Shown here: positions 3,452 to 33,630 of the stretch, in pieces | How positions within the stretch are numbered: position 1 is the stretch's first letter | How the letters are laid out: every line of letters begins with the position of its first letter | Assembly (NCBI GenBank): GCA_009778475.1 | Contig: WRJS01000031.1 | Location: 1-34,105, forward strand | Source: Kiritimatiellota bacterium | GTDB lineage: Bacteria > Verrucomicrobiota > Kiritimatiellia > RFP12 > UBA1067 | DNA: 34,105 bases | Direction: 5' to 3' | Program-made: the position numbers and the translations under genes | Notes under the pieces: model-generated | Database searches by the model: none | Told to the model about the DNA's origin: nothing | What the model saw: the letters and a program-made list of their open reading frames with translations, nothing else

Positions 3452-3540
3452 AATTAGAAATTAGGAATGGGGAGAGAGGAATCAAATGGTGGGCGCGGCA
3501 GGGGATCCCGTTGCGCACACGCTCTGCGTCTCTGCGGGAA
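3452..3540. repeat. intergenic repeat words (ATTAGGA type and CTCTGCGTCTCTGCG type)
   Basis: Between the 5' end of the IMP cyclohydrolase gene (3387) and the 3' end of the glycosyltransferase gene (3567), the bases from 3452 read AATTAGAAATTAGGAATGGG, the same word found at 14037 and 33551. About 65 bases later comes CTCTGCGTCTCTGCGGG, which resembles CTCTGCACCTCTGCGCG near 13680. No gene is seen in this gap. Confidence 0.6.
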
Positions 3541-3566
3541 ACTGAAATCGCGCCAGCACATCCCCG

Positions 3567-4592
3567 TCATTGCCCGCCGCAATAGCTCGCCCACGGGAAA
3601 TCGCGCCAAGCAGGGTCGTCCATGACATACGCGCAGATGAAATCCGCGACGGCCTTGCCGGAATAACAGGCGTGCGTCTTGATGCGCCCTGCGCGCCCGA
3701 TTGCGCGGGCGCGCGTCGGCTCGGCGGCAAGGCGCCTCGCTTTCGCGACGAGGTCGCTTGTCGAATCGAAAAAGACCATCTCTTTGTCCGGCTCATACAG
3801 CGCCTGCAAGCCCGAGGCCGACGCGGTCAACGTGCAGATGCCGTTCCCGGCAAGTTGGACGATGCGGTCGGAACTGTACAGGAATACGTCGTTGCGGTCA
3901 GAGAGGTTCAGGGCCAGCAACGTGCGTTTGAGCATCTGGTCTTTCGCGTCGCCGAAAACGCCGGGGCGGCCGAGGCATCCAGCGAAGCCCAGGCGCAGGC
4001 CGCCCGCGTTCGCGGCGATTTCCGTAAGCAGGGCCGCCCGCTCGGGGCGCAGACGGTCCGAGCCGATGAACACGAGGTCGAAGTCCGCCTCGCGCAATTC
4101 ATCGATGTTCAGCCGCTCGATGTTCGCGTCTGCGGGGTTGGGGATGAACGCGGCGCGGCACCCGTCGCGCCTGAACTGCGCGAGCAGGTCGCCGCCCGTC
4201 GTCACGAAGATGGCGTCCAGCAGCGGCAGTTTGGCGAACAGATGCGAATAGTCGCGGAGCAGGTAAACCTGATCGACGTACCACAGCGCGATTTTCATCT
4301 GCGGGTGTGCGCGGCGCAATGTCTGGAGCGTCTGCGGCGTGATGGCCTGCGCGTGGCCGAGCAGGAGCAAGTCCGGCTCGACGTGCTTGCAGCAGGTGAT
4401 GAGGCATTTGTTCGCGAAGGCCCCGCCGAGGCGTTTGGAGCGCAGGAGGTTGACGCGCGCGCGGTCGCTGATGGAGAACGGATAGACGTAATGCCCCGCT
4501 TGGCAAAGCCCGGTGTGCAACTTGTACTCGCAGTTGTAAAACTCCCTCCCGTCGCGGACGAAACTGTAATGTGCGGCATGAACGATTCGCAT
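3567..4592 (-). CDS. CgeB-like glycosyltransferase
   Basis: This 341-residue protein looks like a GT-B fold glycosyltransferase of the CgeB / Glyco_trans_1_2 type. These transfer sugars from activated donors during surface polysaccharide or glycoprotein assembly. It opens with MRIVHAAHYSF, has a central DLLLLGHAQ segment, and has a second Rossmann half starting near FDLVFIGSDRLRPERA. The C-terminal half has NLSDRNDVFLYSSDRIVQLAGNG and a downstream EPDKEMVFF segment, the donor-side pattern typical of CgeB proteins. There is no signal peptide, so it is likely cytoplasmic. The start at 4592 is supported by AAGGAG five bases upstream. It is the last gene of the minus-strand polysaccharide cluster and is separated from the deacetylase before it by a long inverted repeat. 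The sugar specificity cannot be read from the sequence. Confidence 0.82.
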   Translation of the reverse strand: MRIVHAAHYSFVRDGREFYNCEYKLHTGLCQAGHYVYPFSISDRARVNLLRSKRLGGAFANKCLITCCKHVEPDLLLLGHAQAITPQTLQTLRRAHPQMKIALWYVDQVYLLRDYSHLFAKLPLLDAIFVTTGGDLLAQFRRDGCRAAFIPNPADANIERLNIDELREADFDLVFIGSDRLRPERAALLTEIAANAGGLRLGFAGCLGRPGVFGDAKDQMLKRTLLALNLSDRNDVFLYSSDRIVQLAGNGICTLTASASGLQALYEPDKEMVFFDSTSDLVAKARRLAAEPTRARAIGRAGRIKTHACYSGKAVADFICAYVMDDPAWRDFPWASYCGGQ

Positions 4593-4602
4593 GGAAACTC
4601 CT

Positions 4603-4806
4603 TTTTTAGTTTTTAGTTTACAGTTTTTAGTTTTTAGTTTCTAGTTTTTAGTTTCTAGTTTCTAGTTTCTAGTTTTTAGTTTACAGTTTTTAGTTTTTAG
4701 AATATTGCTTCGTTATCATTTCTGCGTACCATTGTTTCTAACAACTAACAACTAAAAACTGTAAACTAAAAACTAGAAACTAGCAACTAGAAACTAGCAA
4801 CTAGCA
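4603..4806. repeat. TTTTTAG/CTAG word array forming a 46-bp inverted repeat
   Basis: The gap between two polysaccharide genes is made almost wholly of TTTTTAGTTTCTAG-like words on the left (4603-4700) and their reverse complement on the right (4737-4806). Bases 4655-4700 pair with 4745-4790 at 44 of 46 positions, leaving a 44-base loop. As RNA this would form a very long A/U-rich hairpin between the deacetylase and glycosyltransferase coding regions. Confidence 0.9.
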
Positions 4807-4824
4807 ACGAAACTCCTCTCCTTC

Positions 4825-5592
4825 TCATATCTTGAACTTCCCCCTAGACAGCACCAAGGGGAACTGCCATGTTGTCATCTCGCCGTGTGCGCTCAGGCGG
4901 TCGATGGTGTACGGGTCCTCAATGCGCCGGATGCCTTTCTCGCAGGTGAACGCGCACTGGAACCCCAGGCGTTTCAGCATCTCGATCTCGCGCGGCGTGT
5001 AGCGGCCGAAGGGGTACGCGAACGACACGCACGGCCTGCCCGTGACGCGCTCAATCCACGCCTTGCCCTCCTGAATCTCGCGCTCCGCCGTCGCGTCGTC
5101 CAACTCCGGCAAGCGCACATGGCTCAGCGTATGCCCGCCGAACTCGACAAGGCCGCTGTCCGCCATCTCGCGCATCTGCGCGTCCGTCAGCATCGGCTTG
5201 CCGGGGTACTCGCAGCGCGTGGCGGCGAAAACCGTCGCCTTCGCCTGATACGTTTTCAGTAGCGGGAACAGGTGGACGTAGTTATCCTCGTAGCCGTCGT
5301 CGAACGTGAGGCAGACGTGGCGCGAGGTCGGCGCGAAGGAGATCAACTCCGTGGCCGTCACGAACGTGTAGCCATGCGCTTTCAGATAGCGCAACTGAAA
5401 CTCCAGCAGCGTCGGGTTGACATTCAGCCCCGCGCGCATCCCCGGCCACGGCGCGATGTCCGTGGCGTGGTACATGAACGCGCGCGGCAGGTTCGGGTCT
5501 TTCGGGATGCGGAACGGGAAGTAGTAGCGGAGCGAGAGCCCGCACAGCGCGGCCAGCGCAATGGCAAAGAGGATGTACCACACCCATGTCAT
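4825..5592 (-). CDS. membrane-anchored polysaccharide deacetylase (CE4), first copy
   Basis: This 255-residue protein belongs to carbohydrate esterase family 4, metal-dependent enzymes that remove N- or O-acetyl groups from glycans. One N-terminal membrane helix (about residues 4-21) suggests an anchored, outward-facing enzyme. NodB-fold motifs are visible: TFDDG (Asp98/Asp99), HTLSH (metal ligands His154 and His158) and FAYPFGRY. An AGGGAGGAAGGG ribosome site precedes the start at 5592. It resembles the gene at 6552-7316 in length, anchor and motif spacing, so the two are probably paralogues with the GT2 gene between them. A role in trimming a surface polysaccharide or carrier-linked sugar fits the context; the actual substrate is unknown. 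Confidence 0.9.
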   Translation of the reverse strand: MTWVWYILFAIALAALCGLSLRYYFPFRIPKDPNLPRAFMYHATDIAPWPGMRAGLNVNPTLLEFQLRYLKAHGYTFVTATELISFAPTSRHVCLTFDDGYEDNYVHLFPLLKTYQAKATVFAATRCEYPGKPMLTDAQMREMADSGLVEFGGHTLSHVRLPELDDATAEREIQEGKAWIERVTGRPCVSFAYPFGRYTPREIEMLKRLGFQCAFTCEKGIRRIEDPYTIDRLSAHGEMTTWQFPLVLSRGKFKI

Positions 5593-5617
5593 ATCCCTTC
5601 CTCCCTTTTGTTTTTCT

Positions 5618-5643
5618 CACACAAAGGCACGAAGGTCACAAAG
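5618..5643. repeat. CACAAAGG intergenic repeat word
   Basis: The sequence CACACAAAGGCACGAAGG followed by TCACAAAGG lies just upstream of the deacetylase start. It is a relative of the ACCACAATGGACACAAT word at 13338 and the GAAAGACACGAAAGATGCG word near 15666. It lies in the short gap between the GT2 stop and the deacetylase start. Confidence 0.5.
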
Positions 5644-5661
5644 GAATCATTTCCCCGAACA

Positions 5662-6555
5662 TTAATCATTCTTCTCACCTTCCTTCGCTAATTGCAAGGC
5701 GGAAGCCTTGCGCTCCCGGCAATTCCTAATTTTTCCCTCCCCCTGCCCCGCCTCGTAGAGTTTCGCCTCCTTCGCGAACGAGTAGTACGCCGCGTTGACC
5801 GCGCTGATGAAGCCCGGCACGCCGCGCAGGAAGCCGCCCTTCAAAACGTACCCACGGAAAAACGTCGCGGGGAAAAGCGTCGCCAGACGGAACAGCGAAT
5901 GGCGCCGCCCCTTCGCGAAACGCTCCCGCGCCTTCAGCGTCGAATAGGCGTTCTGCTTGGCGATGACCGCCTCCATCGACACCAGCCCGTAGTGCAGCAG
6001 CGGCGCGCGGGTCTGCGCCACAACCGCATCACCCGCCAGCACGACCTGCTCATGCACGAGGTGGGTCAGGTCGTAGCGGCCCTTCGCGCGGCGGAAGCAA
6101 CGGATTTTCGTCAGGATCTCGCTCGGGAAAAGCCTGTTCAGGAAAACCTCAGGGATCGGGAAACGGAGCGCGTCGGCCTTGCCCTCCGCGACGGTTTGGG
6201 CGACGGCCTGCGCGAGTTCAGGCGAGACCTCCTCATCCGCGTCGATGTTCAGCACCCAGTCGTTCGCGCACTGCTCCAGCGCCCACTGCTTCTGTTGCGC
6301 GTAGCCTTGCCAGTCGCGGTGAAGCAGGCGCACGTTCGGAAACGCGGCCGCGATGCCGCACGTCGCGTCCGTGCTGCCCGAGTCCACGAGCACCACCTCC
6401 GCGAAGCCGCGCACGCTCTCCAGCGCACGGCGGATGTGCCGCTCCTCGTCGCAAGCGATGATATAGACTGACGCGGGAATCATACCTTTATTTTCCATTT
6501 CGCGGGCAGGAATTCCCCTAAAGGGGCGCATACAGCCCGTGCCACCTTGTGTCAT
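5662..6555 (-). CDS. family 2 glycosyltransferase (WaaE/KdtX-like)
   Basis: This is a GT-A fold family 2 glycosyltransferase. Marks are SVYIIACDEERHIRRALESV, the nucleotide-binding VLVDSGSTDAT segment, the DADEE metal motif and a C-terminal HLVHEQV region like lipopolysaccharide core enzymes of the WaaE type. It probably adds a sugar to a lipid-linked or core glycan at the cytoplasmic face. The start at 6555 overlaps the upstream deacetylase stop as ATGA, with GGGAGG 8 bases upstream; this gives 297 residues. Homology itself begins near MIPASVYIIA, so a start at 6483 is a real alternative. Oddly, the last residues (about RNCRERKASALQL) are encoded by a dispersed intergenic repeat at 5691-5730, so the natural C-terminus has been replaced or extended. 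Confidence 0.85.
   Translation of the reverse strand: MTQGGTGCMRPFRGIPAREMENKGMIPASVYIIACDEERHIRRALESVRGFAEVVLVDSGSTDATCGIAAAFPNVRLLHRDWQGYAQQKQWALEQCANDWVLNIDADEEVSPELAQAVAQTVAEGKADALRFPIPEVFLNRLFPSEILTKIRCFRRAKGRYDLTHLVHEQVVLAGDAVVAQTRAPLLHYGLVSMEAVIAKQNAYSTLKARERFAKGRRHSLFRLATLFPATFFRGYVLKGGFLRGVPGFISAVNAAYYSFAKEAKLYEAGQGEGKIRNCRERKASALQLAKEGEKND
5691..5730. repeat. GGGAGCGCAAGGC module inside the GT2 3' end
   Basis: This copy contains the hairpin GCAAGGC-GGAA-GCCTTGC (5694-5711) followed by GCTCCCGGC and an ATTCCTAAT word. Related copies lie at 11163-11233 and 14191-14285. Here the module lies inside the glycosyltransferase reading frame and supplies C-terminal residues. Confidence 0.8.
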
Positions 6556-7717: not shown

Positions 7718-9682
7718 ATGAAAATGAAAACGCTCATGTTACTGGTCATGGCTGGCTTGCCGATCTTCTGCTCGGCCCAGCGCAACCAATCCGGAAGGGC
7801 AGTGCCTGCCGCGCCGCCGACGTACACACCGCCGAGCGCGCCTGTCCAGACGCGCCAAAGCGCACCGACGTACACGCCGCCCAGCGCGCCTGTCCAGACG
7901 CGCCAAAGCGCACCGACGTACACGCCGCCGAGCGCGCCTGTCCAGACGCGTCAAAGCGCACCGACGTACACGCCGCCCAGCGCGCCTGTCCAGACGCGCC
8001 AAAGCGCACCGACGTACACGCCGCCCAGCGCGCCCGTCCAGACGCGCCAAAGCGCACCGACGTACACACCGCCCAGCGCACCTGTCCAGACGCGCCAAAG
8101 CACACCGACATATACGCCACCGAGCGCGACCGTCCAGTCACGCCAAAGCGCACCGCCGCCCATCAACGTCGCGCGTCCTGAACGGATCGTCGAACGTCCG
8201 GTGACGCCGACCGTCGAGCGCCCTGCCGTCACGCAACCCGCGCGTTCGGAGCAGCGTCCCGTGGAGCGCCCGGTCTCGCCGGTTGCCGAGCGCCCTGTGA
8301 CGCCGATCGCCGAGCGCCCTGCCGTCACGCAACCCGCGCGTTCGGAGCAGCGCCCTGTGGAGCGCCCTGTCTCGCCGGTTGCCGAACGCCCGGCCTTGCC
8401 GAGTGCGAACCACGAGCCTGACCCGTCCGCGCTTTTCAGGGAATACAGCCGGCAACAGGAGTCCCTGCGCCAGACACCCCAACCGGGCCGCCAGCCGTCA
8501 ACGCCGGGAGCGGACAGGCCCTCGCGCGTTGAGACGCCCGTCGTCTCCCCGCGCCCGCCGAGCGGCGGTGACCGGGATCGCATCATGCGGCCCGACCTCT
8601 CGGGACGCTCGTCCTCGTCACCCGGGCGCATCACAGTACCCGAGACGACGACGCTCCGCTCCACGCCCGGCATGGGCCCGACCCGTGACGCGGCCGCCTC
8701 CCTGCGCCACCCCCTGACCACGCAACGCCCCAGCTTCGGCAGCGGCGGCGGTCATAATCCCCTGTCCTCCCCTGCCTCCAGCTTGCGCCCGCAGACGACA
8801 CAGGCACCGGCGGTGGCCTCGCATCGCCAGCCGCCCGCCGCCGCGCCGCATAACCCCCTCCGCCTATCGCGGCCTGTCGCAGACTATGCGCACCGCACGC
8901 CCATGATGGGGCTGGCACGCCCGCTGCCGTCGCCCATCGTCACGCGCCCGGCGGTGTCGTACCCGGTCGCCGCCGCCTATTACCCGACGTACAACTCCTA
9001 TAACTTCTACCCGCGCCCGGCCTACTACGGCTACTACGGGCCGACCGCCTCGCGCGTGCGCATCTCCCCGTGGCTCAGCCTCGCCCCCATCTGGTGGGGT
9101 CCGGTGCTGTACCCCTCCGGGTTCGGCATCTCTTGGTCGAGCGGATCGTTCGGACTATCGTTCTCAACCTCCGCCTACTCCCCATTCTACGCCCACCGCC
9201 CCTACTATGACTCCTGGTACTATAACGGCTGGGGCTACAGCAGCGCGTACTACGGCGGCTGGTCACGCGGCTGGTACGGCGGCTTCTCCTACGTCTATAA
9301 CCCCTGGCCCGTGTACCGCACCCACTACCTCTACTCGCCGCCCACGCTGGTCTATGAGACAGCCTACTCGCAGCCGCCCGCGCAGACCGTCGTCTATCAG
9401 ACCGTGCAGCACCTCGACCAGCCGCTCACCGTCGCGTCCACGCCCGTTACCGCCGTGCCGCCCGCCCAGCACGCGCACGCGGAGCAAGAGGGCTACCGCT
9501 GCTCCTGCGCCTGCGGCTGCAACGGGCAGGTCCCCTGCACCTGCGAGTACCCCTGCGGCTCGGAGTACGACGACGACGAAACGCAGGCCTACCTGCTCAG
9601 CAACAGCTTCGTCTCCTACGCCGTCTCGCTGAACCCCGAAACCATCTGGGCCTCCTATGCCGGGTTCGACCGCATCCAGTAG
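7718..9682 (+). CDS. secreted Pro/Tyr-rich repeat protein with Cys cluster, function unknown
   Basis: I do not recognise this 654-residue protein. It has a signal peptide (MKMKTLMLLVMAGLPIFCSA). Seven 16-residue repeats of the type TYTPPSAPVQTRQSAP follow, then nearly two copies of a 32-residue Glu/Arg/Pro/Val repeat. A long low-complexity Pro/Arg/Ser linker comes next. The C-terminal region is very rich in Tyr, Gly, Ser and Trp (about residues 405-560), and near the end seven Cys lie within 19 residues (595-613), followed by an acidic DDDE. The layout resembles an extended envelope-spanning stalk with a sticky or metal-binding tail. AAGGAGG lies 9 bases before the ATG at 7718 but only 3 before an ATG at 7712, so 7718 is preferred. 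It may be cell-surface, spore-coat-like or matrix material; this is inference. Confidence 0.8.
   Translation: MKMKTLMLLVMAGLPIFCSAQRNQSGRAVPAAPPTYTPPSAPVQTRQSAPTYTPPSAPVQTRQSAPTYTPPSAPVQTRQSAPTYTPPSAPVQTRQSAPTYTPPSAPVQTRQSAPTYTPPSAPVQTRQSTPTYTPPSATVQSRQSAPPPINVARPERIVERPVTPTVERPAVTQPARSEQRPVERPVSPVAERPVTPIAERPAVTQPARSEQRPVERPVSPVAERPALPSANHEPDPSALFREYSRQQESLRQTPQPGRQPSTPGADRPSRVETPVVSPRPPSGGDRDRIMRPDLSGRSSSSPGRITVPETTTLRSTPGMGPTRDAAASLRHPLTTQRPSFGSGGGHNPLSSPASSLRPQTTQAPAVASHRQPPAAAPHNPLRLSRPVADYAHRTPMMGLARPLPSPIVTRPAVSYPVAAAYYPTYNSYNFYPRPAYYGYYGPTASRVRISPWLSLAPIWWGPVLYPSGFGISWSSGSFGLSFSTSAYSPFYAHRPYYDSWYYNGWGYSSAYYGGWSRGWYGGFSYVYNPWPVYRTHYLYSPPTLVYETAYSQPPAQTVVYQTVQHLDQPLTVASTPVTAVPPAQHAHAEQEGYRCSCACGCNGQVPCTCEYPCGSEYDDDETQAYLLSNSFVSYAVSLNPETIWASYAGFDRIQ
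7820..8155 (+). repeat. seven 48-bp tandem repeats within the coding sequence
   Basis: Seven consecutive 48-base units each encode 16 residues of the TYTPPSAPVQTRQSAP type. The first six differ at few bases and the last is more diverged. The near identity at DNA level suggests recent expansion by slippage or unequal crossing-over, with frame always kept. Confidence 0.95.
8216..8392 (+). repeat. 96-bp tandem repeat within the coding sequence
   Basis: Two copies, starting at 8216 and 8312 (the second incomplete), encode a 32-residue unit beginning ERPAVTQPARSEQRPVERPV. The unit is exactly twice the length of the preceding 16-residue repeat. Confidence 0.9.
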
Positions 9683-9722
9683 CCGCGTCACGCTCACGAC
9701 CGCATCAGGCGCCCCGTTCAGC

Positions 9723-10217
9723 ATGGACTGGGGCGCCTTCTCGCCCACCGACACCGCCGTCCTCACCTTCATCCGCCATGACGGGCAGATCCTGCTCATC
9801 CTCAAAAAGCGCGGCCTGGGCAACGGCAAGTTCAACGCCCCCGGCGGCCGCCTCGAGCACGGCGAGACCCCCGAGCAGGCCGCCGTGCGCGAGACCCAGG
9901 AGGAGGTCGGCCTCACCCCCACCGGCCTGCGCCCTGCCGGCCTCCTTGACTTCGCCTTCACCGACGGCTACTCCCTGCGCTGCCACGTCTTCACCGCGAC
10001 CGACCACACCGGGATCCTCGCCGAGACCGACGAGGCCGCGCCCTTCTGGTGCCCCGAGGCCGACATCCCCTACGGCAGGATGTGGAGCGACGACCGCCTC
10101 TGGGTCCCCCTCATGCTCGACGCCAAACCCTTCCGCGCCGCATTCGTCTTTGACGGCGACCTCATGCTCTGGCACACCTTGCGGGTGGAGGCAGGAATTG
10201 CTAATTATGCATTATGA
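9723..10217 (+). CDS. Nudix hydrolase, MutT/MTH1-like
   Basis: This 164-residue protein has a complete Nudix box: Gly42, Glu48, Arg56-Glu57, Glu60-Glu61 and Gly63. The stretch KKRGLGNGKFNAPGGRLEHGE closely follows the pattern of MTH1-type 8-oxo-dGTP diphosphatases, which clear oxidised nucleotides from the pool. The cytoplasmic protein has no signal peptide. The start is uncertain. ATG at 9723 gives the usual short lead before the first strand. ATG at 9657 overlaps the upstream gene by 26 bases and would add 22 residues. Neither has a good ribosome site, and coupling to the upstream gene is possible. Substrate is inferred from the family only. Confidence 0.88.
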   Translation: MDWGAFSPTDTAVLTFIRHDGQILLILKKRGLGNGKFNAPGGRLEHGETPEQAAVRETQEEVGLTPTGLRPAGLLDFAFTDGYSLRCHVFTATDHTGILAETDEAAPFWCPEADIPYGRMWSDDRLWVPLMLDAKPFRAAFVFDGDLMLWHTLRVEAGIANYAL

Positions 10218-10344
10218 ATTATGCATTATGCATTGACACAAGGCTGAAGGCCCTCGGGGAATATCCAATATCCAACAAGGAATATTCAATGTCCAAGTGA
10301 AATGCGCTGCTGTAGGGCGGTCCCGCGAGACGCGGCGGGCCTAC
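10205..10344. repeat. cluster of periodic words and a GC-rich hairpin between converging genes
   Basis: The gap holds three different words in series. The first is ATTATGAATTATGCATTATG, from about 10207. The second is CCAATATCCAACAAGGAATA, from about 10266. The third is GTAGGGCGGTCCCGCG (10312-10327), which pairs imperfectly with CGCGGCGGGCCTAC (10331-10344). The last word contains the rnfE stop codon. No T-run follows, so it is not a typical terminator. Confidence 0.7.
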
Positions 10345-11018: not shown

Positions 11019-11383
11019 GCGTCAACATCCCTCCTGTGAACGAAAGTCAAAGCGCATTATTATGGCGCACTTTCGCGTTTTGCGCAACACTAAACTGGAG
11101 GGATTGGGGTGTCGCTGTTCGGCATGGTTACAGCCCCCGAGAAACCGCGCCGGGGGCGCAAGGCCGGGAGCGCAAGGCCTCTGCCTTGCAATGCTTAGCT
11201 TGTTATGCAGGGCGGAAGCCCTGCGCTCCCGGCACTGCGCTCCCGGCGCTGAACTCCCCAAAAAATCCTCTGCCGCATTTTTGTGCTTGCATTTGTCCCG
11301 CGAGAGGGGGATACTGTTCTGTAATCTTCAATAAGGGGTGCGGACGATGAAAACGTTTGCCGGAGGTTTGTTGGCGGGCCTCA
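11019..11383. other. intergenic region with facing GGGAGCGCAAGGC modules
   Basis: No gene is supported in these 365 bases. Two copies of the CAAGGC module face each other at 11163-11194 and 11207-11233, with an extra GCGCTCCCGGC partial copy up to 11248. The right part carries a 24-codon reading frame (11347-11421) with a signal-like start, but it runs into the clpX end and is not convincing. Confidence 0.65.
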
Positions 11384-13246: not shown

Positions 13247-13738
13247 AGCGTTCCTTTTGCTCATACCACCCATTCTCTTTTTTGACAGGATTTCAAGACT
13301 AGCAGGATTAACTTGCTGAAAAAAATCCTCCGTTTCCTTTAACCACAATGGACACAATAGAATGCACAAAGGACACTATTATTGTGCCTATTGTGAAAAC
13401 CATTGTGTCCATTGTGGTTAAAAAACATCCTGTTAATCCTGTTCTAAAAAAAATCCTCCGTTTCCTCCCAGCAGCCACAGATGACGCTGATTTGCACCGA
13501 AAAGGGCATAACCATACCATACCCCTGCGCAAAACGCAAGGAGGAATACCGCTGGGTCTTACGGCAATTCCATCCTCCTTATCTATCAATTCTGATAGTG
13601 TCCATTGTGGTTAGAGAAAACGGAGGATTATTTTTGACAGGATTACCTGTCACCTAACTTATCACTTATCACCTCTCCCTCTGCACCTCTGCGCGAGAAT
13701 AAAAACCGGGTGTTTTCAGCTTCCATGGCGCGGGGGTT
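13247..13738. other. repeat-dense noncoding region upstream of clpP
   Basis: No gene is seen here. The words include GACAGGATTTCAAG (13284) and AGCAGGATTAACTTG, the pair AATCCTCCGTTTCCT (13324 and 13453) with its reverse form near 13618, and GTTAATCCTGTTCTA at 13431. Also present are TTGACAGGATTACCTG (13634), ACTTATCACTTATCACC (about 13658) and CCTCTGCACCTCTGCG (13679). The 21-bp inverted repeat at 13338-13422 is listed separately. A TACACT at 13743 could be a -10 box but has no good partner. Confidence 0.75.
13338..13422. repeat. perfect 21-bp inverted repeat of the CACAATGG word
   Basis: TTTAACCACAATGGACACAA(T) at 13338-13358 is the exact reverse complement of 13402-13422. The 43-base centre contains a second, smaller inverted repeat (GCACAA at 13364 and TTGTGC at 13382). 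A third half-copy, GTGTCCATTGTGGTTA, lies at 13598-13613. Confidence 0.93.
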
Positions 13739-14036: not shown

Positions 14037-14285
14037 GAGAATTAGGAATGAGGAATCAGAAATCGGGGGAGAGGAGTCAGGGATGGAGGGCGAACGTCCC
14101 CGTGAGCCGGGCGCCCCCGCTGGCCGCTGGCTCTACCTCGCCGCCCTCGCCGCCCTCTGGCTCATGCGCAGGAGAAAGGGGTGACGCATGTGCCGGGAGT
14201 GCAAGGCTTCCGCCTTGCATTTATTACTTGGCAAGGCAGAAGCCTTGCGCTCCCGGCATCATGCAGGGCGGAAGCACTGCGCATC
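14037..14285. repeat. composite repeat island next to the recombinase
   Basis: In order: an ATTAGGAATGAGGAATCAGA word (14041), the ATGGAGGGCGAACGTCCCCG module (14083), a hydrophobic mini-frame (listed separately), and three GGGAGCGCAAGGC-type copies at 14191-14219, 14230-14258 (reverse) and 14263-14285. The first two of these copies are near-complete inverted partners around a 10-base centre. Confidence 0.8.
14083..14184 (+). other. 33-codon mini-frame resembling a C-terminal sorting/anchor tail
   Basis: The frame reads MEGERPREPGAPAG, then WLYLAALAALWLM, then RRRKG and a stop. The first nine residues are encoded by a repeat module found elsewhere in noncoding DNA. The rest has the shape of a C-terminal protein-sorting tail: a short hydrophobic helix followed by a basic cluster. 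It may be the leftover 3' end of a decayed exported protein. There is no good ribosome site, and an in-frame stop lies at 14032. Confidence 0.3.
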
Positions 14286-14290: not shown

Positions 14291-15574
14291 TCACGTCTCC
14301 GTGGCGGGCAGGGGGGGGATGGCTTTGTTGAGCCAGTCGCGCTTGGATTGGACGCTGGCGTGGCTGTACATGTCGTGCATGTTCTGGGGGGCGTGGCCGG
14401 TGAGGCTGTCGGTGATGCCGGAGGGCACGCCTGCCTCGTCCATCTGGGTGATGAAGCAGGCGCGGAAGCTGTGCATCGTGGCGCGGCCGCGGTGGTCGTC
14501 CAGAACCCCCGCGCCGACCATGAGGCGCTTGACGAGCGCGGACAGGCCGTTGGCGTTGCGGTTGTAGGCGTGGTGGAGGTGGGGGAACAGGAAGCCCGCG
14601 GGCCTTCCGCGCGCGCCCCTGAAGCGTCGCAGCAAAATCTTATGCGTGGCGGGCATGATGGGGATCTCGAGGGGCCAGGGCTTCACGCCGCGCGTCTTGG
14701 GGGGGATGTGGAGGAAGAAATCGCGGGCGGGGTTGAAGTCCTCCCACCTGAGCGCGGCGAGCGAGCCGATGCGCATGCCGTACTGCCACGCGAAGGCAAC
14801 GGCGTCGCGCAGGTCTTCGAGCAGGAGGCGGTTGATGGTGCGGCGGCGGTCGAGGGTGTTTTCCTCCTTGTGGCAGCGCGTGATGCGCATGAGGAAGGCG
14901 CCGGCCTCGCTGACGGTGAGGCGGCGGTAGCGGAAAACGCCGTCGCGCGCCTTAGGCTTGAGGCGCAGGCCGGTGTTCCAGGGGTTGGAGCAGTCGGGCC
15001 AGACGGTGTGCCAGATGCGTTTGAGCGTGCTGATGTCCTGGGGGGCGGTTGACTTGCGGGAGAAGATGTGTTTGATGTATTCCTCGGCCATGGGGCGCGT
15101 GACCTCGTCGGCGTAGGCGGCGGTGGACCAGCGCAGGAACGCGTCGAGCTGATGGCGGTAGCATTTGAGGCTTTTGAGCGCGGCCTCGTAGCGTTGCGTG
15201 AAGAGGAACCACACGTCGGAGAGCCTGACGCGTGGCGGCGCAGGGGAGTTGGCCGGGGTCGGCGCGGCTGGCGGCGCGGCGGCCGGCGCGTGGGCAGCGG
15301 CGCAGGCGTTGAGCTGGCGGAAACAGGCGTTGAGGATGGCGAGCATCACGCTGACGGGGGGCCGTGCCGGGGAGGCCGCCAACGCATACGCGCGCGCCTC
15401 GGCCTCTGCCCGGCTTGCGGTGTGCAGGCAGATGCGCGTCCTGCGCTTGGGCGACAGGGGCAGCGGGATTTCCATGTAATAGATGCCGTCCGCCGTGGAG
15501 TCGGCGGACAGGTATTTGCCGTTGCGGCGCTTGTAGAGGCTTCCCTGGAAAGGGCGTATAGAAATCGCTTTCAT
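14291..15574 (-). CDS. tyrosine-type site-specific recombinase
   Basis: This 427-residue phage-integrase-family protein cuts and rejoins DNA through a catalytic tyrosine. The catalytic set is present: Arg268 (YGMRIGSL), Lys293 in PPKTRG, His368-x-x-Arg371 (MHSFRACF), His394 (LTGHAPQ) and Tyr403 (DMYSH). A core-binding domain covers about 115-200, preceded by an Ala/Pro-rich linker (92-114) and an N-terminal arm-type region with IYYMEIPLPLSPKRRTRI. It stands alone among repeats, with no excisionase, phage or transposon genes. Its start has only a weak ribosome site. It may be a solitary integrase, or mark an integrated element whose other parts have decayed. Attachment sites could not be identified. 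Confidence 0.92.
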   Translation of the reverse strand: MKAISIRPFQGSLYKRRNGKYLSADSTADGIYYMEIPLPLSPKRRTRICLHTASRAEAEARAYALAASPARPPVSVMLAILNACFRQLNACAAAHAPAAAPPAAPTPANSPAPPRVRLSDVWFLFTQRYEAALKSLKCYRHQLDAFLRWSTAAYADEVTRPMAEEYIKHIFSRKSTAPQDISTLKRIWHTVWPDCSNPWNTGLRLKPKARDGVFRYRRLTVSEAGAFLMRITRCHKEENTLDRRRTINRLLLEDLRDAVAFAWQYGMRIGSLAALRWEDFNPARDFFLHIPPKTRGVKPWPLEIPIMPATHKILLRRFRGARGRPAGFLFPHLHHAYNRNANGLSALVKRLMVGAGVLDDHRGRATMHSFRACFITQMDEAGVPSGITDSLTGHAPQNMHDMYSHASVQSKRDWLNKAIPPLPATET

Positions 15575-16096
15575 TCAATAGGGTAGCGTATCTGCGGGGG
15601 AAAGACGAGACATTGATGCGGGGGAAAAACGGAACGGGGCGCGTCCCATATCCAACAGTGAACCGCGAAAGACACGAAAGATGCGAAAATTCAAGAAGGG
15701 CCTTTTATAGGCGGGATTGACAGGATTCCCCTTCCGGCGCATATAGATTTTTGCCGCAATGGGCGCAACACTTTTCGCGATAGGCACAATGATAGTGTCC
15801 GGTGCGCATCTTGTTCGAGTGTCCTGTAAAATACAGATGACGGGATAGAGGACTCCCCTGTTTGGATAGGCGTGATATGGAGGGCGAGGCAGGTGGGATT
15901 TTAGATTTTAGATTTGTGATTTGCCTGTTTGGATAGGCGTGATATGGAGGGCGAGGCAGGGGTCCCCATTGGCGCGGCGTGCGGGTAATGGGGGCTGACG
16001 GCTCGCGGGGACGCTCGCCCTCCAGAAGACGCTCGCCCTCCATCGTGAAACCTGTGTTTTGCAGGACACTCGTTACAGGGTCATGTAACGCGCTGG
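15575..16096. other. repeat-dense noncoding region
   Basis: No gene is supported. Visible words are GTGAACCGCGAAAGACACGA (15659), GGGATTGACAGGATTCCCC (15711), ATTTTAGATTTTAGATTTG (15898), two identical 37-base copies at 15857-15893 and 15924-15960, CCCCATTGGCGCGGCG (15965), and the GGCTCGCGGGGACGCTCGCC module (16000) with a second GACGCTCGCCCTCCA. CCTGTGTTTTGCAGGACACT at 16052 ends the set. Reading frames across this region on the minus strand are made of these words. Confidence 0.75.
15857..15960. repeat. 37-bp direct repeat (two identical copies)
   Basis: CCTGTTTGGATAGGCGTGAT followed by ATGGAGGGCGAGGCAGG occurs identically at 15857-15893 and 15924-15960. The 30 bases between them are largely the TTTTAGATTTTAGATT word. 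Confidence 0.92.
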
Positions 16097-20044: not shown

Positions 20045-20223
20045 GCTCTCTCCCTTTTCAAAATCAAAAAACATAGTATAACCGTTCGCATTGCCCAAGT
20101 CAAAGGGAATTGTGGACGGAATTTCCATTAGGACTGTCCTAAAACCGCAAGACTCAAGACCGTTAACCGCAAAACGCGCGAGACACGCGAGACACGCAAA
20201 AAAGATTTAGAGTCATTTAAGGT

Positions 20224-20371
20224 GGCAAGCGTCGTAGAGACGGATGATTATCCGTCTCCTGAAGGCAATGACACGGGGAGACGGATAATCATCCGTCTCT
20301 ACCAGTAAACCTGTCCTATCGTCAGACCCCATTGGCGCGGCGGGCGGCTCGCGGGGACGCTCGCCCTCCAT
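20224..20371. repeat. 148-bp composite element, copy 1
   Basis: This copy matches 20454-20601 at 145 of 148 positions. It holds a perfect 26-bp inverted repeat (20234-20259 with 20277-20302, loop of 17) whose arms are themselves near-palindromes of GAGACGGATgATtATCCGTCTC. The CCCCATTGGCGCGGCG and GGCTCGCGGGGACGCTCGCC modules follow. The shape recalls REP/BIME elements of enterobacteria, though the sequence is unrelated. Confidence 0.93.
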
Positions 20372-20453
20372 CTGTCGCTCGCCCTCCATCGTGAAATCTG
20401 TATTTTGCAGGACACTATTCAGCACCTGCGGCGCTATGGGACAACATCAGGTT

Positions 20454-20601
20454 GGCAAGCGTCGTAGAGACGGATGATTATCCGTCTCCTGAAGGCAATG
20501 ACACGGGGAGACGGATAATCATCCGTCTCTACCATTAAACCTGTACTATCGTCAGACCCCATTGGCGCGGCGGGCGGCTCGCGAGGACGCTCGCCCTCCA
20601 T
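20454..20601. repeat. 148-bp composite element, copy 2
   Basis: Second copy, 230 bases downstream of the first and in the same orientation, with three base differences. Its inverted repeat arms are 20464-20489 and 20507-20532. It ends about 90 bases before the adk start. Confidence 0.93.
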
Positions 20602-25419: not shown

Positions 25420-25438
25420 GCCGATCAATACAACAAAA

Positions 25439-25476: not shown

Positions 25477-25479
25477 GTG

Positions 25480-28960: not shown

Positions 28961-29021
28961 ACGGTGGAGAGTGGGGTGACATATATGGAGTGCGGCGGCT
29001 TGCCGCCGTGCCACTTGGGGT

Positions 29022-29133: not shown

Positions 29134-29183
29134 CGTCTCCGCAGGGCAATGGCACGGGGAGACGGATAATCATCCGTCTCTAC
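29134..29183. repeat. partial copy of the GAGACGGAT inverted-repeat element
   Basis: CGTCTCCGCAGGGCAATGGC leads into the complete right arm GGAGACGGATAATCATCCGT (from 29157). This matches the loop and right arm of the elements at 20224 and 20454; the left arm is cut off at the junction with the gene fragment. Confidence 0.88.
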
Positions 29184-29235
29184 GATGCCTGCCATTGAGA
29201 CGCTCAAAGGACTATATCATGTTTTGGGGGTCGCC

Positions 29236-29571: not shown

Positions 29572-29589
29572 CGCGCACCTCCTTTTTCC

Positions 29590-32157
29590 TCACTCGATGA
29601 TGATGATGCGGAAGCTGTGGCGGTCGAGGGGGAAGGTGAGGGTGGCGGGGGCGGCGAAGGCTAGAGTCTCCCCGGTCTCGGCGTCGCGGGCCTGGGCGTT
29701 GCGCGGGAGCTTGGCGGCGGTGAGGTCGGCGGTGACGGGGCCGGTGTCGCCGTAGCTGGCGGTGATGAGCATCGCCTTGCCGCCGCGCCGCAGGAGAAGG
29801 GCTCTGGCGGGGGCGCCGGTGAGGCGGACGGGGAAGCCGGGGTCCCAGTAGCGGCTGACGCGGCAGTCGGGCTGGCCGTAGCCGAAGTCGGTGAGGATTT
29901 GGATGAGGCGTTTGTGGAGGGGGCCGCCCCAGAGGCCGGGCTTGATCTCGTGCACGAGGGAGGAGCCGGCGGCGCTGCGCTCGATGCGGGGGTCGTTGTT
30001 GAACAGGCCGTGCCAGACGGCGAGGCAGCCGCTCTGCAGGCCGGTGCTCTGGGCGAGCAGGAGGGTGGCGTCGGCGTCGAGGCCGAGGCGCTCGTTGACG
30101 TCCATCTTCTTGTAGTCGCCTTGGTCGCGCCATTCGTGGTCGAGGATGAGGGTGGCGAAGGAGAGCATGGGGATGGCGTTGACGTTGGTCATGTGGATGA
30201 AGGTCATGGGGGGCAGGCCGAGGCGGTGGTGCAGGAGGGCGGTGCGCTTGGTGAGGTCGTGGAAGCCGAAGATGTTGACGCCGGGGCAGGGGCGGCCGTC
30301 GTCGTCGGTGTAGCCGGGGCCGAGGGGGGCGGGGGTGTAGTTGGGGGAGAGGCAGTAGTTGTCGTAGTAGATGCCGCCGGCGAAGCCTTCGAGCATCTTG
30401 GCGAGGTAGTGCATGATGAAGGACTGGCGGGAGGGGAGGGGGTCGTTGGCGTATTCGATGCCGTTGTTGGCGCGGGGCAGGACCTGCTTGCGCCAGGCGG
30501 TGAGCCAGACGCGGCCGTCGCGCGCGCGGATGAAGCGCTCGTCGCCGGGGTAACGGGGGTCGGCGATGTCGTAGGTGCTCCACTCGTCCATGAAGGTGGC
30601 GGCCTCGTCCTCCCAGTTGACGGCGCGGGCGTTGGTGTAGGGGATGACTTTGCCGTCGCGGAATTTGCCGTTGCTGAGGTAGTTGAGGGACCAGTTGATG
30701 TGGTTGGTGTAGGTCTGCATGTCGGGCTGGAACTCGGGGGCGGAGAAGGCGGAGAGCCAGCGGGGCGTGAACGTGGGGTCGAGCGCGCCGCCGCGCTGGA
30801 GGCGGCCGAACTCGGCGTAGATGGAGAAGTCCTTGAACGCGGGGTAGAAGGCGTGGAAGGGGCCGGCCGCGCCCCAGTAGTAGCACGCGCCCATCCAGCC
30901 GAAGGGCAGGGTGCCGGGCGCGTCGGCGGCGATCTCGTGGCTGGGGAACCAGCGGCGGAAGTTGAGCGGCTCCTCGGGCATGGGCTTGGCGGGGGTCGCC
31001 ATCAGGCCGAAGGTGATGGCGCGGGCGCGGCCGAGGGCCGCGGGGCGGTTGAAGAAGTGGATGTGCAGGGACGTGACGCCGCCGCGTCGGCGGATCTCCA
31101 TCATCGGCTTCTGCGGGTCGAGCGAGCAGTCCTTCGCGTTCTCCGCGAACCAGCAGATGCCGCGCTCCGGGCCGCCGACCCAGATGTACGGCACGAACGG
31201 CGGCGGCAGCTTGTCGCGGCCGACGTGGCTGGACTCCCACACGCAGTCGGGCGAGGCGCTGTTGGTGTAGGCCACCGCGTAGCGCGAGCCGTCGTAATGC
31301 CAGAGCTCGCCCGCGCCGTCGGGGATGCGCCCGGCGTAATGGAAGCGGAGCAGGTCCGTCACCGGATGCATGAGGCTCGCCTCATCCGTCCGCAGCGGGA
31401 TGACGAGCGAGAGCGATTCGACCGTCGCCGGCGAGGGGTCGATGTGCAGCGTCACGCGCACCATGCCGTCATAGTCGAACGCGAACTCCGTCCTCCCGCG
31501 CAACGCCCCCAGCGTCCACGGCGCATGGCCCAGCACGCGGTCCGGCGCGCGCTCCGTGAACGTGACCCCCTTGCCCGACGCGGCGCAGGCCTTCCCGTTG
31601 ACCGAGCCCTCCAAGCGCATGGGCGCCGCCAGCAACGCGACCCCCTGCGACGTCACCCCGCGCCACAGCCCTGCCGCGTCGAGCCGATGCTCCCGCAGCA
31701 CGCACCCCACGCGCGTCGGCCAGGTCTTGACCGTCAGCGGCGTGAACGGCGCGATGACCACGCGCTCATTGCCCAGCTGCTCTTCCTCCCACGCGAACCG
31801 CTTACGCACGAACGTCCGACGGATGCCCGTGCCCTCCAGCGCGAGCGTGTACTCGCCCTCATCCAAAGGCGGCAGGTCAAGCGTCACACCCGCCGACGGC
31901 ATCGGGTAATCCCCCCGCCACGCGGCAAGCCGCTCCTCGCCCCGCAAGAGCGCAAGCCGCCATCCCCCCTCCGTCACCGCCGGGGTCAGGATGAGGACAC
32001 GCAACTTACCCGCCGTCGGGAAATACGAAAAACGGAACTCCGTCCCATCCGGCTCCTTCAGCAGGTCATTGATATTCACACCCTCCTGCGCCCGCGCCAT
32101 AAGCGCCACCGCCAGCATCCCCCCCGCCAGCCACCGAGTGATCCCCTGCATATCCAT
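29590..32157 (-). CDS. secreted GH123-like (DUF6067-type) glycoside hydrolase
   Basis: This 855-residue protein has a signal peptide (MDMQGITRWLAGGMLAVALMARA). The first 370 residues are beta-rich and include PFVPYIWVGGPERGICWFAEN, a hallmark of the GH123-N-terminal-like / DUF6067 group. A central barrel-like part has FGWMGACYYWG, FAGGIYYDNYCLSPNYTP and FIHMTNVNAIPMLSFATLILDHEW, where acidic residues near the YYDN and DHEW segments are candidate catalytic groups. A C-terminal beta-sandwich closes it. AAAGGA lies 7 bases before the ATG at 32157; a GTG at 32163 is also in frame. Family members act on complex carbohydrates; the substrate here is not known. A truncated copy of its 3' end lies at 29022. 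Confidence 0.82.
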   Translation of the reverse strand: MDMQGITRWLAGGMLAVALMARAQEGVNINDLLKEPDGTEFRFSYFPTAGKLRVLILTPAVTEGGWRLALLRGEERLAAWRGDYPMPSAGVTLDLPPLDEGEYTLALEGTGIRRTFVRKRFAWEEEQLGNERVVIAPFTPLTVKTWPTRVGCVLREHRLDAAGLWRGVTSQGVALLAAPMRLEGSVNGKACAASGKGVTFTERAPDRVLGHAPWTLGALRGRTEFAFDYDGMVRVTLHIDPSPATVESLSLVIPLRTDEASLMHPVTDLLRFHYAGRIPDGAGELWHYDGSRYAVAYTNSASPDCVWESSHVGRDKLPPPFVPYIWVGGPERGICWFAENAKDCSLDPQKPMMEIRRRGGVTSLHIHFFNRPAALGRARAITFGLMATPAKPMPEEPLNFRRWFPSHEIAADAPGTLPFGWMGACYYWGAAGPFHAFYPAFKDFSIYAEFGRLQRGGALDPTFTPRWLSAFSAPEFQPDMQTYTNHINWSLNYLSNGKFRDGKVIPYTNARAVNWEDEAATFMDEWSTYDIADPRYPGDERFIRARDGRVWLTAWRKQVLPRANNGIEYANDPLPSRQSFIMHYLAKMLEGFAGGIYYDNYCLSPNYTPAPLGPGYTDDDGRPCPGVNIFGFHDLTKRTALLHHRLGLPPMTFIHMTNVNAIPMLSFATLILDHEWRDQGDYKKMDVNERLGLDADATLLLAQSTGLQSGCLAVWHGLFNNDPRIERSAAGSSLVHEIKPGLWGGPLHKRLIQILTDFGYGQPDCRVSRYWDPGFPVRLTGAPARALLLRRGGKAMLITASYGDTGPVTADLTAAKLPRNAQARDAETGETLAFAAPATLTFPLDRHSFRIIIIE

Positions 32158-32271
32158 ACGCACATCCTTTCCGAATAAATTGTGATGACGAAATTAAACC
32201 ACAAAGCCGCACGGAAGTCAATATCATGGCGGGCGATTGCTAAAGCCTCTAAGAAACTTCCTGCTTGTGGA

Positions 32272-32304
32272 GCACTTTCAACTTGCTTCCGGTCGTGAAA
32301 GTGC
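32272..32304 (+). promoter_or_regulatory. 9-N15-9 palindromic operator over the efflux promoter
   Basis: GCACTTTCA (32272-32280) and TGAAAGTGC (32296-32304) are exact inverted partners around 15 bases. They flank and cover the -35 box and reach the base before the -10 box of the promoter at 32283-32311. This is the typical position for a repressor of an RND pump operon. No regulator gene is adjacent. Confidence 0.7.
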
Positions 32305-32311
32305 CTATACT
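32283..32311 (+). promoter_or_regulatory. sigma-70 promoter for the MFP-RND operon
   Basis: TTGCTT (32283-32288) and TATACT (32306-32311) are separated by exactly 17 bases. Transcription would start near 32318, leaving a leader of about 40 bases before the ATG at 32360. This is the best-looking promoter in the window. Confidence 0.7.
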
Positions 32312-32359
32312 TTCGGGCTTATTTCAAACAGGCAATGCAGGCGCATTAAGGGAAACGTT

Positions 32360-33556
32360 ATGAGTAGTCAGAGGGTTCGGGTCGTCGAGGGTGCCATCAT
32401 TTGGGTGATTGCGGCGGTGTGTTTGGTGACGCTGGGGTGGTATGCCGCTCATTTTTATTCGCTGGGGAAGTCCAGGGGCGGTATGGGCGGTATGGGCGCG
32501 GGGGTGCCGAAGGTGGTCGTGAAGGCGGTGGAGGAGGGGGTCGTGAACCCGCCGCGTAAGTTCATCGGTCATGTGGAGGCGATGGAGGCGGCGGAGGTGA
32601 AGGCGCGGGTGGGCGGTTACCTGAAGGAGATCGCGTTCGAGGAGGGCGCGGTAGTCAAGGAGGGCGATCTGCTGTTCACCATCGATGATGAGGATTACAC
32701 GGCGCGGGTGGCGCAGCGCAGGGCGGACATCGCGAAGGCGGAGGCGATGCTGGAGCGGTCGGGGTCGGTGCTGGAGCGTGTGGAGAATGTGCTGAAGCGT
32801 CTGGAGGCGGTGGACGCGCGGAGCGTGTCGGCGCTGGACTTGGACAATGCGCGGGCGGATGTCTTGACGGCGAAGGCGGATGTCTCGACGGCGAAGGCGG
32901 CGCTGGTGGAGGCGCAGACGCATCTGGTCTCGGCGGAGATTGACTTGAAGCACACGAGGGTGTATGCGCCGGTCACGGGGAAGATCGGGCGCAGGCTGGT
33001 GTCGAGGGGGGATTACGTCGTGCCGGCGGCGGCGCTGGTGCGGGTGGTGCAGTTGGACCCGGTGCGGGTGGTGTTCTCGGTGACGGATCGCGATTTCGTG
33101 GAGTTCAAGACGCGCGCGGAGGTGCGGGGGGACAGTGAGAAGATCCGGGCGCGGATCGTGCTGCCGACGGGGGCGGAGTATGGGTCGCCGGGGATATGGG
33201 ATTTCTTTGACAACAGTATGTCGGAGCAGACGGCGTCGCTGACGGTGTGGATGCGGGCGGAGAACAGGGAGGGGGTGCTGCTGCCGGGGACGTATGTGAA
33301 TGTGCTGGTGGAGGGGTCGGCGGTGGAGCCGTCGCCGGTGGTGGACGTGGCGGCGGTGCGGCGGAGCCAGCAGGGCGCGTCGGTGTTCCGCGTGGGCGCG
33401 TCGAACACGGTGGAGGCGGTGCGCGTGACGCTGGGGCTGGCGACGGAGCGGCTGGTGGCGGTTGAGTCGGGCCTTGCCGTGGGCGACCGTGTGATTGTGG
33501 AGGGCCTCCAGAATGTGCGCGCGGGGGCGGTGGTGGAAGTGGTGGAAAAAAATTAG
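32360..33556 (+). CDS. RND efflux membrane-fusion protein (AcrA/MexA family)
   Basis: This 398-residue periplasmic adaptor has an N-terminal membrane helix (about 12-31) instead of a lipoprotein signal. The family layout is clear: a barrel-sandwich half (EAAEVKARVGGYLKEIAFEEGAVVKEGDLLFTIDDEDY), a long coiled-coil hairpin (about 110-185), and the second lipoyl half (DLKHTRVYAPVTGKIGRRLVSRGDYV). A beta-barrel and a membrane-proximal domain follow. It links the inner-membrane pump encoded next to an outer-membrane channel. AAGGGAAACG lies before the start at 32360. Its TAG stop lies inside the long inverted repeat that separates it from the pump gene. Confidence 0.95.
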   Translation: MSSQRVRVVEGAIIWVIAAVCLVTLGWYAAHFYSLGKSRGGMGGMGAGVPKVVVKAVEEGVVNPPRKFIGHVEAMEAAEVKARVGGYLKEIAFEEGAVVKEGDLLFTIDDEDYTARVAQRRADIAKAEAMLERSGSVLERVENVLKRLEAVDARSVSALDLDNARADVLTAKADVSTAKAALVEAQTHLVSAEIDLKHTRVYAPVTGKIGRRLVSRGDYVVPAAALVRVVQLDPVRVVFSVTDRDFVEFKTRAEVRGDSEKIRARIVLPTGAEYGSPGIWDFFDNSMSEQTASLTVWMRAENREGVLLPGTYVNVLVEGSAVEPSPVVDVAAVRRSQQGASVFRVGASNTVEAVRVTLGLATERLVAVESGLAVGDRVIVEGLQNVRAGAVVEVVEKN

Positions 33557-33630
33557 GAATTAGAAATTAGGAATTAGGAATGGGGAAGAAGAAAAAAAGA
33601 TTCCTAATTCCTAATTTCTAATTTCTAATT
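33551..33630. repeat. 31-bp inverted repeat of the ATTAGGA word between MFP and pump genes
   Basis: AATTAGGAATTAGAAATTAG and the next 11 bases (33551-33581) pair with 33600-33630 at 30 of 31 positions around an 18-base purine loop. The left arm contains the fusion-protein stop codon, and the right arm ends four bases before the CAGGAG ribosome site of the pump gene. Confidence 0.95.

Follow-up and report, generated by a model that had tools for sequence, protein, structure and literature searches.

Periodic hairpin elements in the intergenic DNA of a Kiritimatiellota bacterium, and the IVP and GxxExxY genes found between their arms

The intergenic gaps of a 34,105-nucleotide stretch of DNA from a Kiritimatiellota bacterium (contig 31 of genome G000, which comprises 3.97 Mb in 208 contigs; the whole stretch is called the window below) contain short words that recur, often in inverted pairs. 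We consider it probable that three kinds of small hairpin element, most copies of which carry no gene, occupy these gaps: class 1, with arms of degenerate, AT-rich tandem heptamers and, in its gene-bearing copies, a gene for the 23S-rRNA-intervening-sequence protein (IVP, PF05635; S23/four-helix-bundle) between the arms; class 2, with arms of degenerate tandem nonamers and a GxxExxY PD-(D/E)XK nuclease gene (PF13366); and class 3, GC-rich modules of the repetitive extragenic palindrome (REP) or REPIN type, some of which lie beside Y1 (RAYT-like) transposase genes. The anatomy of the elements, the period-specific link between arms and gene, the filled and empty sites, the turnover between species and the spread over phyla were obtained directly, from comparisons in which most of the genomes are draft assemblies. 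Where an earlier note on the window had read a single mixed lexicon peculiar to this genome, we find three classes that differ in period (7, 9 and compact GC palindromes) and in partner gene, and elements of the same build with the nonamer word ACAGGATTA are found in many phyla.

Words, arms and enclosed genes

The inverted arms and the genes between them were compared by one rule for all loci: the upstream flank was aligned locally with the reverse-complemented downstream flank, and the best alignment had to reach a score of 28. The lead to PF05635 came from a scan of the open reading frames that lie between inverted arms in samples of G000 and of G001, the sole congener of G000 among the relatives searched (G078 is the same genome as G001), while the first lead to GxxExxY was one hairpin with a gene between its arms (match to TIGR04256, PF13366). 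PF05635 has matches in 33 of 52 genomes, 29 of them above the curated cut-off, and PF13366 in 39 of 52. Among the loci returned by the searches, about one best match per genome, inverted arms enclose the gene in 23 of 30 IVP loci (p = 6e-22) and 24 of 30 GxxExxY loci (p = 2e-23), compared with 10 of 307 genes taken at random from G000 and G001, several of those ten being genes that lie between two hairpins; mismatched pairs pass in 2.3% and 6.8% of cases. The period of the arms goes with the gene: the best lag is 7 or 14 in 15 of the 23 passing IVP loci and 8-10 or 13 in the others (mean lag-7 autocorrelation 0.50), and it is 9 in 15 of the 24 passing GxxExxY loci and 8 or 10 in the remaining nine (mean lag-9 autocorrelation 0.39). 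Loci from genomes in which the searched words are rare or absent also pass, 6 of 9 for IVP and 4 of 7 for GxxExxY.

Plasmids carry both kinds of locus. Among plasmid loci chosen by hand from the top of the listings (7 of 30 IVP records and 3 of 8 GxxExxY records), a score of at least 28 is reached by four of the seven IVP loci (Nostoc edaphicum, Anabaena, Geminocystis, Picosynechococcus; Trichormus scores 25 and two are lower) and by two of the three GxxExxY loci (Bacteroides finegoldii, Bernardetia). Three of the cyanobacterial plasmid IVP elements (L425, L426, L431) sit between cooperating genes, i.e. nrdB/nrdA, cas6/cas4 and cmr2/cmr3.

Within this genome, an IVP gene lies in the loop at L376/L411, L406, L407, L408 and L409, and four words of the window, TTTTTAG, ATTATGC, GTRATAR and AATATCC, are the arms of such genes; the word AATTAGG forms the arms of an IVP gene in G001. 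The nonamer arrays of class 2 include ACAGGATTA, CACAAAGGA, CGCAAAG and others; ACAGGATT flanks a GxxExxY gene in this genome and CACAAAGG forms GxxExxY arms in G001. The hairpin elements of the window have terminal inverted repeats predicted to form a stem, gene-less hairpins are more numerous than gene-bearing copies, and the gene-less copies share their ends with gene-bearing elements of the same genome.

The word lexicon itself stands well above chance in the gaps, as counted over 814,105 bp of G000 with gene calls made for this analysis. Lag-7 runs of at least 12 matches have a density of 31.5 per 100 kb in the gaps, against 0.9 in coding DNA; 18-mers common to at least two gaps make up 18.9% of gap bases against 0.4% of a coding control of length-matched segments, one per gene; and 16-mers common to at least three gaps are found in 174 of 316 gaps against 4 of 316 coding segments. 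These shared-word tests replaced an initial 11-mer coverage test, which was unspecific (its coding control re-sampled the same genes). Genome-wide, the 20-base word AATTAGGAATTAGGAATTAG has 106 + 112 = 218 matches (up to two mismatches, overlapping units counted), and its reversed control none. Since the listed words match in 147 of the 316 gaps of at least 100 bp against 28 of 570 genes, the earlier note was right that the gaps are built from recurring words, and went too far in extending this to nearly every gap: the lexicon fills about half.

Inverted 9-mer pairs were counted in three sets of 399 sequences: gaps (176 hold a pair), shuffled gaps (52) and coding segments of equal length (114). 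Because coding segments hold such pairs too, the mere presence of a pair is a weak signal, and the distinguishing mark of the gaps is that the same words recur within inverted pairs: 167 nine-mers recur in at least four pairs in the gaps and none in the coding control, in agreement with a reused, modular set that is often paired. By a seed-based count, both orientations of a word family occur in 57 gap-and-family cases and one orientation only in 181, among which ACAGGATT is foremost (43 of 47), so that the pairing holds for a part of the cases. Where both orientations are present, the polarity is fixed: over seven word families of G000 and G001, 52 gaps read word then complement, 3 are reversed and 2 are mixed. 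Purine-rich left arms are found in 118 of the 165 gaps of G000 that could be decided and in 51 of 70 of G001, against 49 of 99 coding controls. A telomerase-like break-extension idea was dropped, because any element with inverted ends would show a fixed arm polarity as well; a shared loop-tip motif GCAATGC (11 of 239 loops) and a crossed order of units between the two arms, an impression gained by eye, were dropped as well.

The words are patchy among relatives. AATTAGG is present in 11 of 59, and in four relatives that are without it (298,389 bases sampled) the listed words occur five times in all; one of these four, G002, has a lag-7 run rate like that of G000 (2 runs in 5,954 gap bases), the remaining three have no lag-7 runs, and all four do carry IVP genes, with other words. 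In the word-site count across 42 genomes, the reversed control scored in 14, with as many as 19 counts, in genomes that have four forward matches or fewer, where it perhaps reads as another heptamer word.

The arms of class 2 follow their protein. With 25 of 31 sequences entered, word similarity tracks the GxxExxY protein tree (rho = -0.47, p = 0.001), and the relation is kept in repeats on 22, 20 and 17 sequences, i.e. without close pairs or without the whole ACAGGATT group (rho -0.42 to -0.48, p = 0.001). The words ACAGGATT and ACATGATT belong to one GxxExxY subclade that extends over Firmicutes, Bacteroidota, Proteobacteria and Kiritimatiellota, and also includes L368, with a different word. 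As word similarity follows the tree, recognition of the word by the nuclease is plausible; the D..ExK residues are invariant in 31 of 31 GxxExxY proteins, and a search by sequence gave no solved structural relative.

The solved protein 2gsc, which a reference title describes as five four-helix bundles, is matched by the IVP protein of this genome (E = 3.5e-25). According to PMC10053308, PF05635 is homologous to Avd, an accessory protein that differs in working with a reverse transcriptase in diversity-generating retroelements. This homology hints, by analogy, at a reverse-transcription step in the IVP elements. Related IVPs occur in the same slot with different words (L375/L379 and L412/L399, the slot judged by eye), and a Mantel test, which 37 of 43 sequences entered, gave no relation between word similarity and the IVP tree (rho = -0.03, p = 0.29; left out of the tree were L404, below the cut-off, L390, with a stop, L402, a partial match, and the duplicates L411/L417). 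For both of these reasons, the link between IVP and the arms looks structural and not one of word reading.

The GC-rich modules look like REP/REPIN repeats, an assignment less certain than that of classes 1 and 2. REPs and REPINs with their RAYT genes are described as small intergenic inverted doublets that form hairpins, with spread in trans by the partner gene proposed (PMC3733652, PMC3116915), and GTAG-tagged palindromes are of the kind described as REPs (PMC3733652); class 3 would fit this description, and the window has two doublets of GTAG-tagged palindromes, at 20234 and 20464. By eye, the other GC modules of the window have no GTAG or CGTC tag. Listed GC words are found by pattern at two of the six Y1 loci of this genome (L435 and L438), L437 has GGCAGGAATGCC by eye, and the Y1 gene L438 is flanked on either side by the GGGAGCGCAGGGC module. 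At L229 (Thiobaca trueperi), a Y1 unit with GC palindromes of its own is, by eye, apparently inserted inside a ACAGGATT hairpin.

Spread over phyla and turnover between relatives

The exact 18-mer GACAGGATTAACAGGATT occurs in at least 114 stretches of reference genomes. The 80 matches listed include isolates and come from Proteobacteria, Chloroflexota, Verrucomicrobiota, Kiritimatiellota, Bacteroidota, Firmicutes, Acidobacteriota, Planctomycetes, Nitrospirae and Armatimonadetes, and also from the archaeon Methanoperedens; a complement unit lies within 250 nt downstream in 53 of these loci and upstream in 3 (nine loci have shorter flanks). In 21 genomes chosen for having it, the 16-base core is present in 4 to 258 copies per genome, with 0 for the reversed control. 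The 18-mer is also found in 29 stretches of viral_contigs, where a close-relative search gave two IVP loci and no GxxExxY; a search made for IVP in the phage collection gave no match. Viruses are unlikely to be the main carriers of the words.

Relatives differ in which elements they have at the same gaps. The orthologous gaps of G000 and G001 that were read differ in occupancy. In 13 of the 20 genomes of the G059 family, one locus contains both flanks of the hscB-hscA gap: a ACAGGATT hairpin occupies the gap in G059, G060 and G074, hairpins of other words occupy it in G091, G088 and G061, and seven genomes have no array. Ten element sites were compared between two sister species with about 92% identity at hscBA. 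In the sister, three of the sites are empty, two have the same word and four carry a different hairpin (another nonamer word in three, the GTTGGGTT type in one); one could not be judged.

Reading 65 orthologous gap pairs by eye, we found nine with arrays in both genomes and seven with an array in one only; of the nine, the element is the same in two, the word is shared but in a genome-specific version in two, and the word differs in five (one of them complex). Co-occupancy is above independence with the seed gaps (p = 1.4e-6) and without them (p = 7.8e-4), which permissive gaps or replacement in place would explain equally well. An automatic inverted-repeat rule gave 14 pairs occupied in both genomes, 11 in G059 only, 4 in G060 only and 36 in neither.

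Two loci were seen in the course of these comparisons. A helicase gene of G001 (L150:246-3155) contains two in-frame heptamer-array hairpins (TTGAGAAG/AGTAGAAG), with the reading frame open; the ortholog in G000 (L174:9937-12708, with Helicase_C_2 and DEAD domains) is without both, and the same word also flanks an IVP gene of G001 (L415). At L416, in G059, a GxxExxY gene has stops in the frame read and is still between its arms; by eye, the gap lies before an anthranilate-synthase-like gene and is apparently the same as in G085 and G091, which have stop-free copies with other words.

Possible origin of the elements and competing explanations

The heptamer elements resemble the intervening sequences (IVS) of 23S rRNA in their stem-loop, their terminal inverted repeats and the IVP family protein in the loop; they differ in lying between protein genes, in many copies, and in having heptamer-array arms of many words. 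Gene-less forms of IVS exist. In Coxiella, the rRNA intervening sequence encodes S23p, with tandem heptamers upstream of it, and RNase III excises the sequence; in the same source the origin of IVS-type elements is called unclear, with a mobile-element hypothesis on record (PMC4990558). By analogy, the heptamer elements look like an intergenic, high-copy counterpart of the Coxiella IVS. The TAACTGA heptamers (PMC4679880) are likewise intergenic and scattered over phyla, occurring in Beggiatoaceae, cyanobacteria and Bacteroidetes, with horizontal transfer suspected; they differ in being described as direct repeats, for which a role in translation has been suggested, and the abstract of that paper mentions no link to IVP. 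Paired multicopy sites of Geobacter metallireducens, described as possible IHF/HU binding sites (PMC2700814), share the short tandem repeats on opposite strands. In their gene-less copies, whose inverted ends resemble those of a gene-bearing element, the elements are like miniature inverted-repeat transposable elements (MITEs), and they are unlike MITEs in that no DDE transposase was seen between the arms and no target duplication was seen by eye. Other short repeats that invite comparison are the cyanobacterial short tandemly repeated repetitive sequences, small dispersed repeats and Rickettsia palindromic elements. In the open-access literature, which most subscription journals lie outside, we found nothing that joins heptamer or nonamer arrays to IVP or GxxExxY genes.

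From the sequences we infer a selfish nature for the small hairpin elements of classes 1 and 2, with MITE-like derivatives, class 1 being intergenic relatives of the 23S rRNA intervening sequences and class 2 a parallel nuclease family. A fuller proposal, which we put forward tentatively and hold as a real possibility but not as the expected outcome, is that they form two parallel lineages of undescribed, widespread selfish elements, one with heptamer arms and an Avd-like four-helix bundle, the other with nonamer arms and a word-reading PD-(D/E)XK nuclease, which would copy themselves into gaps across bacteria and archaea and shed gene-less copies by the hundreds. Already on the first of these readings, the element would move as a hairpin into intergenic gaps, the encoded protein would act in trans on gene-less copies, the GxxExxY nuclease would recognise its word, and the arms would be re-homogenised through out-of-register pairing followed by copying; in the fuller proposal, both arms would be rewritten jointly in this way. 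The spread of the words, which the earlier note left unexplained, has concrete candidates in the genes between the arms and, for some GC modules, in the Y1 genes beside them; the mode of movement is still inferred. Two proteins that are often annotated but little studied, ‘four helix bundle protein’ and ‘GxxExxY protein’, acquire a shared genomic setting, scattered reports of intergenic heptamer repeats are joined to the rRNA intervening sequences, and the long-standing puzzle of what spreads short periodic intergenic repeats across phyla becomes testable, with named candidate proteins and defined substrates. If true, the proposal of two selfish lineages would also explain the heptamer repeats in cyanobacteria and others, and the origin of the rRNA intervening sequences.

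Several observations weigh against the reading of three element classes and its inferred movement, beside the missing relation between the IVP tree and the words. The arm score failed at 7 of 30 IVP loci, 6 of 30 GxxExxY loci and 4 of the 10 plasmid loci of both kinds. G061 and G085 have no PF05635 match despite 47 and 40 CAAGTWGCAAGT sites, and Thiobaca (258 copies of the 16-mer), G063, G088 and G089 are word-rich and have no PF13366 match; in the G059 family, PF13366 is present in 8 of 11 word-rich genomes and 2 of 9 others, which is not significant (p = 0.07). No target-site duplication was apparent by eye in three filled/empty pairs, whose flanks are diverged too far for certainty. No element was seen to move, and the two partner genes may be carried as cargo without being the movers.

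In that event, both genes would be passengers that land inside hairpins made by a third factor, a reading that we regard as unlikely. The word-rich genomes without partner genes and the IVP tree that the words do not match speak for it; against it, each of the two periods, 7 and 9, is associated mainly with its own gene, and the word follows the GxxExxY tree.

That all the words are REP/REPIN-type repeats moved by Y1 (RAYT) transposases seems to us quite improbable, despite the GC modules beside Y1 genes and the GTAG doublets of this genome. Of the 53 genomes searched, 46 have a Y1 match (a total in which G001 appears twice, once as G078), and in the G059 family Y1 goes with the word-rich genomes (10 of 11 against 4 of 9, p = 0.05), a further point on the opposite side from our reading. 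The Y1 flanks, however, hold other repeats than the heptamer and nonamer arrays, with no common period; 6 of 29 Y1 loci pass the arm rule, with no common lag; and the ACAGGATT element occurs in Spirosoma (G064) and in G086, where Y1 has no match. Unlike REPINs, the arms of classes 1 and 2 are tandem arrays and not palindromic units, and they go with other genes. On the Y1 flanks and the arm rule, Y1 was rejected as the mover of the arrays, although its co-occurrence with word-rich genomes in that one family speaks for it.

It is very improbable that slippage during replication, together with template switching at quasi-palindromes, builds the arrays on the spot, without any need for mobility. 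The unit number does differ between orthologous copies (L258/L266), and the same-slot IVPs with different words suggest that words may change in place; but the exact 18-mer in many phyla, copies of a 117-bp element that are 90-96% identical in several species, empty orthologous sites and specific genes between the arms all argue against such an origin.

That the hairpins are functional terminators or regulators under selection is likewise very improbable, and a terminator role was rejected as a general explanation: the predicted hairpins are strong, several begin right after a stop codon and one group has its arms between an A-run and a T-run (both by eye), but elsewhere the base reads T-run to A-run by eye, the inverse of the terminator order, occupancy differs between congeners and between sister species with empty sister sites, two arrays lie in frame within the helicase gene, and elements sit between cooperating genes (e.g. 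nrdB/nrdA and cmr2/cmr3).

Elements of the window

The features below are given without a strand unless (+) or (-) follows. A heptamer hairpin with the words TTTTTAG/TTTCTAG/TTTACAG spans 4603..4812 (left arm 4603-4700, a loop, and the reverse-complement right arm 4738-4812, from Tandem Repeats Finder) and shares its word with the arms of the IVP gene G000:C26:11390-11704 (L376/L411). The AATTAGG hairpin at 33549..33631 (arms 33549-33581 and 33600-33631) is one long stem, and its word also flanks IVP genes in G001 (L414) and G021 (L418). A nested nonamer hairpin lies at 13284..13446, with outer ACAGGATT arms at 13284 and 13428-13446 and inner CACAATGG arms at 13338-13372 and about 13382-13424; ACAGGATT also flanks the GxxExxY gene G000:C119:9990 (L410). 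These three hairpins fold far better than shuffled sequences, at -80.4 kcal/mol (z -12.3), -39.3 kcal/mol (z -8.8) and -63 kcal/mol (z -10), respectively.

Single heptamer arrays, read directly, are a short AATTAG array at 3450..3472 (+) and an AATTAGG/AATGAGG array at 14040..14065 (+). The ATTATGC/ATTATGA array at 10200..10234 (+) has its word also in the arms of the IVP gene G000:C5:43258 (L406), and the AATATCC/AATGTCC element at 10256..10307 (+), which ends in CCAAGTGAAATGCGC, has a word that is found in 14 of 399 gaps and forms the arms of the IVP gene G000:C17:23635 (L180/L409). The array at 13656..13675 (-), the reverse of GTGATAA, belongs to a word family that also flanks the IVP gene G000:C36:14066 (L407), and for the GATTTTA array at 15895..15916 (+), whose word is in 3 of 399 gaps, no partner gene was found.

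Further nonamer features are the CACAAAGG array at 5615..5645 (+), whose word forms the arms of a GxxExxY gene in G001 (L353), and three more: a CACAATGG right arm with GACAGGATTA at 13600..13645, a CGCGAAAGA array together with GACAGGATT at 15660..15730 (+) and a half-arm AATCCTGTC at 2680..2696 (-). The word GACAGGATTA had been placed at three sites; 13636 does read so, but 13284 reads GACAGGATTT and 15719 reads GACAGGATTC.

Among the GC-rich modules, the palindrome GCAAGGCGGAAGCCTTGCGCTCCCGGCA at 5694..5723 belongs to a family found in 24 of 399 gaps, which flanks the Y1 gene G000:C30:19648 (L438) on both sides; inverted module pairs of the same family lie at 11149..11258 and 14191..14260. 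The GTAG-tagged, REPIN-like palindrome doublet GTAGAGACGGATGATTATCCGTCTC..GAGACGGATAATCATCCGTCTCTAC occupies 20234..20302, with a second copy at 20464..20532, 230 bp on in a duplicated stretch, and a single copy of its palindrome at 29159..29183. The GAGGGCGAGCGTCC module, in 30 of 399 gaps, lies at 20355..20368 (-), with others at 14086 (a variant), 16009 and 20585; by eye, the stretch 20220-20600 contains both the doublet and this module twice, at the same spacing of 230 bp.

An Rfam scan of the window gave no family at its threshold. The earlier statement that no transposase is nearby needs a qualification: a Phage_integrase-family gene at 14291-15574 adjoins the longest repeat-bearing gap of the window. 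No link of this gene to the words was found. A 48-bp tandem repeat of about seven copies lies inside a long open reading frame at 7817-8155, and the contig ends at window positions 1-128 and at L016 from base 1 are pentanucleotide arrays (GAGCC x25 and ACGGC), perhaps assembly break points.

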